Positions 50,316-56,714 of a stretch of DNA of 64,000 nucleotides are shown one piece after another. The notes under the pieces are model-generated. The model saw nothing but the letters and a program-made list of their open reading frames with translations, did no database searches and was not told the DNA's origin. The translations under genes and the position numbers were made by a program. Numbering within the stretch: the stretch's first letter is position 1; each line of letters begins with the position of its first letter. This stretch comes from Marivita hallyeonensis. GTDB lineage: Bacteria > Pseudomonadota > Alphaproteobacteria > Rhodobacterales > Rhodobacteraceae. Location of the stretch: assembly GCF_900129875.1 (NCBI RefSeq), contig NZ_FQXC01000002.1, forward strand, positions 248,001 to 312,000. The letters are read 5' to 3'.

Positions 50316-50678
50316 TTAGGCTGTCACAGGTGCCATGATCTCCACTTCGGCGCCGTCCTGAACTTCGGTATAAAAACACGACCGGCGGAGCGTGTGGCAG
50401 GCTGGCCCGGTCTGGTTCACCGTCACCAAGAGGCAATCCCGGTCGCAATCCACGCGCAGGGCGACAAGCTCCTGCACGTGGCCCGAGCTTTCGCCCTTGA
50501 CCCAGAACGCCTCCCGCGACCGGGACCAATAGGTCACGCGCCCTGTCTCGAGCGTGCGCGCGACTGCCTCGGCATTCATCCACGCCATCATCAAGACCTC
50601 ACCGCTTGCGGCGTCCTGTGCAATCGCCGGGATGAGCCCCGCATCATTATAGACCAAAGTCGCAGGATCAAATGTCAT
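50316..50678 (-). CDS. hisI: Phosphoribosyl-AMP cyclohydrolase
   Basis: This 120-residue histidine-synthesis enzyme has the metal-binding DCDRDC (near 78) and [11 protein letters not shown] (near 91) motifs, and [22 protein letters not shown] near 46 for substrate binding. It is the single-domain form without HisE. It is encoded apart from other his genes and is divergent from the Fe-S scaffold gene. Confidence 0.95.
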
Positions 50679-50746
50679 GGGGAAAAACCTTTTTGCATCC
50701 GCCGCTTGGTCGCCTATCTATGAGGAGAACCGCGAAAGGGAAAGCC

Positions 50747-51199
50747 ATGTCTGGCGAGACCGATCTGATCAAACTCTATTCCGCCCGCATTCTTGAGCTT
50801 GCGGCAGACATCCCGCATCACGGGCGGCTGGATGCGCCCGCTGTGACGGTCAAGAAACGTTCGCCGCTCTGCGGGTCGACAGTGACCGTCGATCTGACGT
50901 TGGAGGACGGAAAGGTCAGCGCGTTTGGACAGGACGTCAAAGCCTGCGCATTGGGTCAAGCCGCCGCGTCGGTGGTTGGTGGGGCCATCATCGGCACCAC
51001 ACTGGAGCAGGTCACGCAGGCCCGCGCCGAATTGCGTGCGATGCTGAAAGAGGACGGACCGACGCCGTCGGCCCCATTTGACGGGCTTGAGGTGCTGCGC
51101 CCTGCCGTTTCCTACAAGAACCGCCACGCTTCCATCCTGCTGACGCTGGATGCCGCGTGCGAAGCGGCGGCGCAATTGGCGGAAACGCAAACCGCCTGA
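50747..51199 (+). CDS. Iron-sulfur cluster assembly scaffold protein (IscU/NifU-like)
   Basis: This 150-residue protein has the scaffold fold with Cys in KKRSPLCGSTVTVDL (near residue 38), KACALGQAAASV (near 67) and DAACEAA (near 141), the three positions that bind Fe-S clusters in IscU-like proteins. The ATG at 50747 follows GAAAGGGAAA; a longer frame from 50672 is rejected. It is not near other isc or suf genes. Confidence 0.88.
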   Translation: MSGETDLIKLYSARILELAADIPHHGRLDAPAVTVKKRSPLCGSTVTVDLTLEDGKVSAFGQDVKACALGQAAASVVGGAIIGTTLEQVTQARAELRAMLKEDGPTPSAPFDGLEVLRPAVSYKNRHASILLTLDAACEAAAQLAETQTA

Positions 51200-51213
51200 T
51201 CCCATAATCCGAT

Positions 51214-51252
51214 AAAAAAAACCGCCGCACTTCAGGGAACTGAAGGCGGCGG
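51214..51252 (-). terminator. Intrinsic terminator on the minus strand
   Basis: A 13-bp stem (CCGCCGC, a bulged A, then CTTCAG, pairing with CTGAAG and GCGGCGG) around a GGAA loop is followed on the minus strand by eight U residues. It is a textbook rho-independent terminator, placed to end the transcript of the 44-residue membrane peptide gene upstream on that strand. Confidence 0.9.
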
Positions 51253-51385
51253 CAAGTCGCGTGTTCGTTGGGGCCGTCAAAGCTTGTGAAGGCAGGCAAC
51301 CTTCGCTTGGGACAGGTGCATCACAGTTGGGACAAGATGCGAAAGCTATCGGGCGGGAGCACGCAGGCAGAAAAAGGTAACAGGG

Positions 51386-51520
51386 TCAGACAAGCACCGG
51401 CAGATGCAACGCGGCCACCAGCATGACAATCAGCGACATCGCCCCAAGCGCGTCCTGCAGAAGCGCCGTATTGGTCTGGGCCTTTGCTGTGTGAAGCGTG
51501 GTTTTGATCCGCTGCATCAT
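51386..51520 (-). CDS. 44-residue single-helix membrane peptide, candidate SOS-induced
   Basis: The frame encodes MMQRIKTTLHTAKAQTNTAL and then a C-terminal hydrophobic helix (about residues 23-44, DALGAMSLIVMLVAALHLPV). Arg and Lys residues at the N-terminus favour an N-inside orientation. AAGGAGGACATCACA gives a near-perfect Shine-Dalgarno sequence. Upstream lies a GAAC-N7-GAAC LexA-type box and a further half-site; downstream is a strong intrinsic terminator. It is 87 bp after recG. SOS-induced small membrane proteins of this design include Caulobacter SidA and enteric TisB; that comparison is functional, not homology. Confidence 0.72.
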   Translation of the reverse strand: MMQRIKTTLHTAKAQTNTALLQDALGAMSLIVMLVAALHLPVLV

Positions 51521-51543
51521 TGTGATGTCCTCCTTGTTGCCGC

Positions 51544-51601
51544 TTTGTTCTCATATCCCGCACACCAAGTAAAGAACTTTTTGAGAACATTTGAGAACAA
51601 A
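51544..51601 (-). promoter_or_regulatory. LexA/SOS box upstream of the 44-residue peptide
   Basis: GAAC-TTTTTGA-GAAC at 51574-51588 is exactly the alphaproteobacterial LexA box (GTTC-N7-GTTC on the other strand). A third GAAC follows at 51595-51598 with N6 spacing, and TTTGTTCTCA at 51544-51553 is the inverse of TGAGAACAAA at 51592-51601. On the minus strand a TATGAG (51550-51555) is a possible -10. The element lies between the recG stop and the peptide start. Confidence 0.7.
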
Positions 51602-51606
51602 AGTGG

Positions 51607-55928
<4,322 letters not shown>

Positions 55929-55971: not shown

Positions 55972-56061
55972 ATGTCGCGGACCACACAACGACGACGCGC
56001 CGATCACGCGCCTATGGCGATCTTTCCGGTATCCGCGGTGTCCGGATCGCGAAGGACATAA
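55972..56061 (+). CDS. Possible 29-residue ORF antisense to the ctrA 3' end
   Basis: AAGGAGGACCC precedes an ATG and a 29-codon frame ([20 protein letters not shown], then SAVSGSRRT). The basic start and excellent ribosome site are the only support. It lies in the gap after ctrA and overlaps the last part of ctrA on the opposite strand, so a spurious match is quite possible. Confidence 0.25.
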
Positions 56062-56714
56062 CCCCTGCCCCAGACCGTTTCGATGTAACTGCCATCGCCG
56101 GTGGCTTCTGCCAGCTTCTTGCGCAGCTTGCAGATGAACACGTCGATGATCTTGAGTTCCGGTTCGTCCATGCCGCCATAGAGATGGTTGAGGAACATCT
56201 CTTTGGTGAGCGTCGTGCCTTTGCGCAGGCTGAGAAGTTCGAGCATCTGATACTCCTTGCCGGTCAGATGCACCGCATTGCCTTCGACCTGCACCGTCTT
56301 GGCGTCGAGGTTCACCTCGACCTTGCCGGTGCGGATGATCGATTGCGAATGCCCTTTGGACCGTCGGATGATCGCGTGAATGCGCGCAACCAGCTCTTCG
56401 CGGTGGAATGGCTTAGTGAGGTAATCGTCGGCACCAAAGCCGAAACCCTTGATCTTGTCGTCGCTGGCATCGTTGCCGGAAAGGATCAGGATCGGCGTTT
56501 CAATGCGCGCCAGACGCAACTGTCGCAGGACATCGAAACCGTTCATATCCGGCAGGTTCAGATCGAGAAGGATCAGATCGTAGTCATAAAGCTTGGCCAG
56601 ATCGATCCCTTCTTCCCCGAGATCGGTGGAATAGACATTCAGATTGGCATTGCCCAGCATCAGTTCGATGCTTTTTGAAGTTGTTGGGTCGTCTTCGACC
56701 AAGAGCACACGCAT
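56004..56714 (-). CDS. ctrA: Cell-cycle response regulator CtrA
   Basis: This 236-residue regulator has a receiver domain (Asp near residue 51 in [17 protein letters not shown]) and an OmpR-type winged helix ([30 protein letters not shown]), ending in [11 protein letters not shown]. The sequence is that of CtrA, which in Caulobacter controls cell cycle and in Rhodobacterales controls motility and gene transfer agent genes. It lies downstream of the sciP gene, whose product restrains CtrA in relatives. A TTAA-N7-TTAT sequence upstream resembles a CtrA site. Confidence 0.96.

Follow-up and report, generated by a model that had tools for sequence, protein, structure and literature searches.

A gene behind recG in the Rhodobacteraceae with LexA operators, a conserved one-helix peptide and a structured RNA: a candidate for division control after DNA damage

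In the family Rhodobacteraceae, a small gene found directly behind recG, the gene of a repair helicase, combines LexA operators, a reading frame for a predicted membrane peptide and, past its stop codon, a candidate structured RNA that runs up to an intrinsic terminator. The gene is described here from a stretch of 64,000 nucleotides (nt) of Marivita hallyeonensis (contig NZ_FQXC01000002.1, positions 248,001 to 312,000), which is called the window and whose numbering is used below; on its minus strand the gene, hereafter the SOS unit, occupies less than 400 nt. Its operator, its coding frame, its synteny and, in relatives, the fold of its RNA are established by sequence comparison across the family, and the two products, peptide and RNA, may together delay cell division after DNA damage. 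The features of the locus are as follows.

51607-53700, minus strand: recG, the conserved upstream neighbour
51574-51598, minus strand: LexA operator GTTC-N6-GTTC-N7-GTTC, of which 51574-51588 is the canonical GTTC-N7-GTTC part
51536-51550, minus strand: second, inverted LexA-like box GAAC-N7-CAAC, offset from the first box by 38 nt
51527-51535, minus strand: Shine-Dalgarno sequence AAGGAGGAC
51386-51520, minus strand, stop included: 44-codon frame for a predicted one-helix membrane peptide of an unnamed family
51254-51376, minus strand: candidate structured RNA, conserved, lying between the stop codon and the terminator (covariance-model match, with covariation in relatives)
51362-51375, minus strand: conserved single-stranded motif UUUUUCUGCCUGCG
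51364-51371, minus strand: UCUGCCUG, inside UUUUUCUGCCUGCG and complementary to the ftsZ start region
51360-51364, minus strand: closing stem P1, 5' arm GCGUG
51259-51263, minus strand: closing stem P1, 3' arm CACGC
51318-51340, minus strand: hairpin H1, with UGUCCC in its loop
51288-51304, minus strand: hairpin H3, with UUGCCUG in its loop
51214-51253, minus strand: intrinsic terminator with eight T at its end, fold -25.2 kcal/mol
50672-51199, plus strand: convergent gene, a relative of which is present in 22 of the first 30 loci

In the window, about 130 nt separate the stop codon from the terminator, and a consensus promoter scan at the locus returned no sigma-70-like site. A previous, sequence-only reading of this DNA had proposed a candidate SOS-induced membrane peptide with a LexA box and a terminator of its own, and the GTTC-N7-GTTC pair at 51574-51588, the third half-site, the Shine-Dalgarno sequence, the 44-codon frame and the eight-T terminator all lie on the minus strand where it had placed them. 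Absent from that reading were the second, inverted box at 51536-51550 and the structured RNA at 51254-51376. The membrane peptide that it described stands; as a full description of the locus, a membrane-peptide gene falls short, since a conserved structured RNA follows the stop codon and the peptide would be only half of the locus. Induction by damage and a role for the peptide as division inhibitor or membrane-active agent, both put forward in that reading, are here taken as hypotheses.

A single LexA box is by itself not significant in either the window or the genome, as GTTC-N7-GTTC occurs four times in the window against 2.48 times in shuffles (at least four times in 24 of 100 shuffles) and 164 times genome-wide against 143 for the reversed pattern. 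The operator counts as significant because it is conserved across genomes. Among 149 genomes sampled as Rhodobacteraceae going by their named relatives, 132 of them of good quality, 126 (the window's own included) bear the frame, and GTTC-N7-GTTC lies no more than 400 nt upstream of it in 121 of these, as against none of the 126 for the reversed control pattern. The LexA box claimed earlier is supported in this way, and the test by which that claim could have fallen, a lack of conservation of frame and box in related genomes, went in its favour. The triple GTTC half-site array was found in 97 of the 126 frame-bearing genomes, the second inverted box, as GAAC-N7-[CG]AAC, in 108, and a spacing of 37-39 nt between the two boxes in 102.

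LexA is at hand as well, with one LexA domain in the window's genome and LexA domains in 143 of the 149 family genomes. The lexA promoter of the window's genome carries the box GAACATCCGTAGAAC and the recA promoter the box GAACAAGAGGTGAAC; the latter promoter (L031:1350-1400) holds GTTCTCTTTTTGATC, one mismatch away from the box, followed by TGAGAACAAGAGGTGAAC, giving two facing operators around TGAGAAC in a layout similar to that of the SOS unit, at an offset of 28 versus 38 nt. The recA offset is shorter by about one helical turn. A conserved direct repeat at the promoter, like boxes at the organism's own lexA and recA genes and the presence of LexA are the marks of a LexA-regulon member, and all were found, making LexA control of the peptide and RNA gene well supported by comparative evidence. 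A study of D. shibae predicted LexA sites at lexA, recA and other genes; the word recG appears nowhere in its main text (PMC6473078).

With regard to distribution, a search with the single protein matched 73 of the 149 family genomes, and a profile of 30 members matched 126 of them (112 of the 132 of good quality), with a second, weak match in only three of the 126. Because the profile was built from the same sample, 126 of 149 is a presence count and not an independent test. Linkage to recG, observed earlier in the window alone, is family-wide, recG lying directly upstream of the frame in 121 of the 126 genomes. The five genomes in which recG was not seen adjacent (L071, L106, L111, L112 and L139) keep both operator and frame, so the unit may be able to move as one piece; in L111, little upstream sequence precedes the contig end. 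An exact 45-nt promoter pattern, GTTCTNAAAAAGTTCTTTAC-N16-GAGAACAAA, searched in 84,980 named species, gave at least 118 stretches, and 117 of the 118 among the matches listed lie behind recG; the remaining one (L250) has the frame as well. The 80 titles listed are those of Rhodobacteraceae-type genera, Rhodobacterales or alphaproteobacterial metagenome-assembled genomes. The whole frame was present in 115 of the 118 listed stretches by a looser criterion and in 62 by a stricter pattern, and three listed loci that end inside the unit (L196, L203 and L242) were excluded from the 118 named loci. Applied to 385 genomes of the class outside the family sample, the profile found eight matches, five of which belong to the same family; the other three are marginal (E 0.008-0.01) and fall inside frames of 290-429 residues.

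The statement that no named family fits the peptide agrees with searches of Pfam (best E 0.1, in one of 62 members), NCBIfam (best 0.064, in one of 62) and PADLOC (no match up to 0.1), none of which gave a convincing match. Solved structures yielded only two chance matches, at E 3.4. No paper on the SOS locus was found in the open-licence literature, and the word recG is absent from the main text of two small RNA surveys in the family (PMC4809877, PMC5107571) and of a study of small RNAs from untranslated regions (UTRs) (PMC8625941).

Several lines of evidence argue that the frame is a real protein. In an alignment of 62 of 83 diverse proteins, M1, D23, G26 and L38 are invariant and P41 is nearly so. 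Nonsynonymous change (dN) is lower than synonymous change (dS) in 2189 of 2281 pairs drawn from 81 frames of 40 residues, with a median of 0.42, the pairs sharing ancestry and being non-independent; judged by this substitution pattern, the peptide is under purifying selection. A reading of the frame as a leader peptide only was rejected on the ground that the protein is under selection. Across 245 sequences, a set that includes some genomes twice, 243 have an 18-residue stretch scoring above 1.8 on the Kyte-Doolittle scale, and lysine and arginine are absent from the last 12 residues in all 245; by the positive-inside rule, this absence suggests a topology with the N-terminus inside and the C-terminus outside. 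AlphaFold predicts one continuous helix over residues 3-43 at a mean pLDDT of 77, lower in the first 20 residues. The single hydrophobic helix of the sequence-only reading is borne out by this hydropathy and charge pattern and by the predicted structure, and, by prediction only, the product would be an inner-membrane peptide with one transmembrane helix, of the SidA type. A short version of 31 residues occurs in four of the 115 members among the matches listed (L185, L233, L253 and L271), of which L185 and L233 bear Paracoccus titles. These members of about 31 residues, whose loci differ in the tail, have lost all but the helix carrying the D..G and LP motifs, and this part is therefore the core of the peptide.

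The region after the stop codon was studied in a set of 100 tails, comprising the window and 99 named loci; 16 of 115 were dropped for being shorter than 200 nt or for lacking a T-run at 105-270 nt. Within this set, TTCTGCCTG is present in 49 tails, against 0.47 in shuffles, and TGTCCC in 82, against 12.1. Single folds of 14 loci, compared by eye, present an unpaired UUUCUGCCUG, a long closing stem, up to three hairpins and then the terminator, and their hairpin loops display UGUCCC, CUGCCUG and UGCCUC. RNAalifold, given a sequence-only alignment of 57 of 89 non-redundant RNAs, recovered the terminator alone; swapped-arm tests and a covariance model were therefore used. Stem arms fit their own partners better than swapped ones, with z of -9.3 (n=66), -10.1 (n=75), -6.5 (n=59) and -10.8 (n=48), as against 0.1, -1.9 and 0.5 for shifted controls. 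A first covariance model, made from 11 relatives with the window left out and searched against the window and 99 of the 118 named loci, found the window's RNA at 51254-51376 with an E of 4e-4 among 100 sources. In the alignment of the 73 matches of this model, which is biased towards the structure and includes a few weak rows that are misplaced, 87.7% of pairing cells are paired versus 70.2% when shuffled, covariation is 0.345 versus 0.140 when shuffled (reached in none of 500) and 0.04-0.06 when slid, and double changes occur in 24 of 24 pairs.

One further step on the tail RNA took 53 sources. A second covariance model had 50 rows, and its scores are partly by construction because the window and loci of some of the searched genomes are among those rows; it gave 69 matches in 67 of the 149 genomes at E up to 0.05, and 65 of the 69 lie directly behind the peptide frame. 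The four weak matches off the frame (G132:C153:3502-3600, G147:C185:5073-5154, G034:C1:2633012-2633136 and G105:C19:132185-132313) may have arisen by chance or may mark additional RNAs of this type. With the terminator removed, the mean fold z over the 100 tails is -1.86, and 46 of them are below -2; with the terminator, the window's RNA reaches -3.62. Rfam had nothing at the gathering score in eight loci, and in the window (50900-51900) returned only SNORD16, far below its gathering score. That the post-stop region is in relatives a covarying structured RNA new to Rfam is well supported by these alignments.

As a possible target of this RNA, ftsZ was chosen before any ftsZ start region had been viewed, because the RNA DinR represses ftsZ; by then, the unit's own 5' region had already been tested as a pairing partner. 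FtsZ was found in 145 of the 149 genomes (PF00091), and 40 ftsZ start regions were read, drawn from the 45 genomes that rank highest by RNA match, of which one had no FtsZ match and four were skipped. All 40 contain CAGGCGGA at the Shine-Dalgarno position, and 21 contain ACAGGCGGACA. The strictly conserved CAGGCGGA is an unusual Shine-Dalgarno sequence of ftsZ in the family (L360-L399). CAGGCGG was seen at ftsZ in 24 of 30 further loci, two of whose genomes overlap the set of 40 and four of which gave no start. The pairing between UCUGCCUG and CAGGCGGA extends over eight positions with one G-U, and in one genome (G018) ftsZ has CAGGCAGA, a perfect match to that genome's own UCUGCCUG. Of 56 start regions, the organism's own ftsZ ranks first for the window's motif and second for the consensus motif. 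The 8-nt core pairs with ftsZ to a degree that no more than 0.6% of 678 control start regions reach; these controls come from a simple gene caller and are often the same few genes around recG, hence not independent. Complementarity of this kind points to ftsZ as a candidate target of the RNA.

Known systems offer likenesses to each half of the SOS unit. SidA of Caulobacter crescentus is LexA-controlled and made after DNA damage (PMC4211646), and SosA, with its C-terminus outside (PMC6851548), and YneA (PMC13396833) are likewise reported as one-helix SOS division inhibitors. Like these proteins, going by the reports cited, the peptide described here is small, is predicted to have one transmembrane helix and, judged from its promoter, is LexA-controlled; unlike them, the SOS unit adjoins recG rather than lexA and carries a structured RNA. 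The profile gave no sequence link to SidA in the 385 class genomes, a comparison in which the SidA sequence itself was not included. For the RNA, the closest counterpart is DinR, which in Klebsiella comes from the 3' part of the LexA-controlled dinI mRNA and represses ftsZ at its ribosome-binding site (PMC10907235). The SOS unit resembles it, so far as that account goes, in being an mRNA of a small protein with LexA boxes whose conserved 3' part has a Rho-independent terminator and a proposed target in the ftsZ start region, LexA control and co-transcription being here read from sequence. The two differ in that the pairing stretch of DinR is reported as a Klebsiella-specific region, whereas the RNA of the SOS unit is kept in many family members and has a closed multibranch fold; additionally, the protein here is a membrane peptide and not DinI, and both processing and pairing are proposed. 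The dicBF operon of the E. coli Qin prophage specifies a small protein, DicB, and an RNA, DicF, both of which act on FtsZ (PMC10448788), and the single transcript proposed here would likewise act on division through both a small protein and an RNA; as described there, dicBF is prophage-borne and DicA-repressed, whereas the SOS unit is chromosomal with LexA boxes. Within the same bacterial family, ccaF1-CcsR1-4 of Rhodobacter sphaeroides codes for a small protein and has stress RNAs in its 3'UTR (PMC8625941). Going by that account, its protein is another one and its RNAs are several. The SOS unit stands apart from it in two further respects. CcsR1-4 differ from the SOS unit in their RNA motif, CCUCCUCCC, and in the type of promoter.

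Taken most simply, a gene behind a repair helicase that is kept through most of a family would serve to delay division during repair. We infer that LexA binds the operators and that damage induces the gene, that its RNA targets ftsZ and its peptide the divisome, and that both halves serve division arrest. In undamaged cells, LexA on two facing operators, the triple GTTC array and the inverted GAAC-N7-CAAC, would silence the gene. After DNA damage, this chromosomal and as a rule single-copy gene would yield one transcript, the 5' part of which would be translated into a bitopic peptide of about 40 residues with its N-terminus in the cytoplasm and its C-terminus outside. The peptide would have its site of action in the inner membrane and, most likely, its target in the septal machinery, as SidA does. 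The 3' part would form the structured RNA, either released or still attached, and its C-rich single-stranded segments would pair with the Shine-Dalgarno region of ftsZ (ACAGGCGGACA), lowering FtsZ synthesis as DinR and DicF do. That a gene repressed by LexA delays division after damage through two products, a peptide and an RNA, is the reading we put first, tentatively and with slightly more doubt than conviction. Its boldest form, in which a core SOS gene of the family combines a divisome-acting peptide with a multi-loop antisense RNA against ftsZ translation, and in which the loops and the ftsZ Shine-Dalgarno sequence have been co-selected, we regard as possible and view with considerable doubt.

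A number of results weigh against this account. No profile match exists in 23 of the 149 genomes and no RNA-model match in 82. A match to the RecG end was found in 19 of those 23 (in one of them only inside a 1163-residue frame), and in 13 of the 18 downstream regions read, a one-helix frame that has diverged was recognised by reading, each time together with one or more LexA-like boxes (L279, L280, L282-L286, L289, L292-L296, as against none in L281, L287, L288, L290 and L291), so that presence is above 126 of 149. The body of the window's own RNA folds no better than shuffles (z -0.98; 33 of 200), and the structure in the window therefore rests on relatives and the model match. As to ftsZ, 7.1% of controls match the 12-nt motif at the ftsZ-median level; the H2 seed is equalled by 7.4% of controls, H1 by 15.6% and H3 by 36.9%; 10 of 200 scrambled seeds equal the real one on 20 ftsZ regions; and the organism's four own seeds, summed, rank ftsZ only sixth of 56. 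The full 8-nt complement occurs within the first 45 nt in only 62 of 126 RNAs (4.65 expected), and within 150 nt in 70 (8.15 expected). Some genomes that gave no RNA match have the ftsZ motif as well. Finally, no co-variation between ftsZ and the RNA was seen (z -1.0), as both sides are conserved.

Foremost among the alternatives, and unlikely though far from negligible, is a SidA-like SOS division inhibitor whose 3' RNA merely protects or terminates the mRNA and has no target in trans. A conserved one-helix peptide with LexA boxes is what it predicts, SidA itself being described as a 29-residue inner-membrane SOS inhibitor that acts on FtsW (PMC4211646), and the Paracoccus versions are only 31 residues long; yet a stabilising tail needs no conserved unpaired UUUCUGCCUG and UGUCCC, and the excess of TTCTGCCTG over shuffles given above is at odds with it. 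An improbable alternative is that the unit is mainly a regulatory RNA, with C-rich loops that bind other mRNAs or an RNA-binding protein; the peptide would then be a side product or an output of its own. In favour of this alternative are the closed multibranch fold with its recurring C-rich single-stranded segments, the moderate strength of the ftsZ evidence and the R. sphaeroides precedent of 3'UTR RNAs behind a small-protein gene, CcsR1-4 behind ccaF1 (PMC8625941); against it, selection acts on the peptide, and 99.4% of the control start regions fit the core motif less well than ftsZ does.

Very improbable is that the peptide works as a type I toxin like TisB, depolarising the membrane and promoting dormancy. 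Loci of type I toxins are usually patchy and mobile in distribution, whereas the SOS unit has one main copy per genome, which in 121 of the 126 is placed behind recG. The toxin reading would suit a small hydrophobic peptide with LexA boxes, and TisB is reported as LexA-controlled (PMC8145889), but two tests on 45 loci did not support pairing of the 3' RNA with the 5' region of the unit (z +2.5 and -2.0), no search for an antisense RNA having been made. The last alternative, that the frame is spurious, the box due to chance and the terminator simply part of recG, is scarcely credible and was rejected, for although the box alone occurs at about chance frequency in window and genome, operator, frame and RNA are conserved, and operator and frame are kept even in the five genomes without recG seen adjacent.

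The wider neighbourhood of the SOS unit, with names assigned from sequence, may also be of note. The convergent gene (50672-51199, plus strand) is presumably iron-sulfur scaffold-like, and upstream of recG lie, on the minus strand, frames that we take to be an NAD-dependent DNA ligase-like gene (53697-55820) and a CtrA-like response regulator (56004-56714). The latter would place the SOS unit near a likely cell-cycle regulator.

The Rhodobacteraceae are a major group of marine and phototrophic bacteria, for which no account of how division is held after DNA damage was found in the open-licence literature. The SOS unit is a widespread candidate for this role: its operator is clear, its peptide is conserved and its structured RNA is new. 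Should the pairing with ftsZ prove true, the family would have, in its core genome, division control by a peptide and by an RNA on one SOS transcript.
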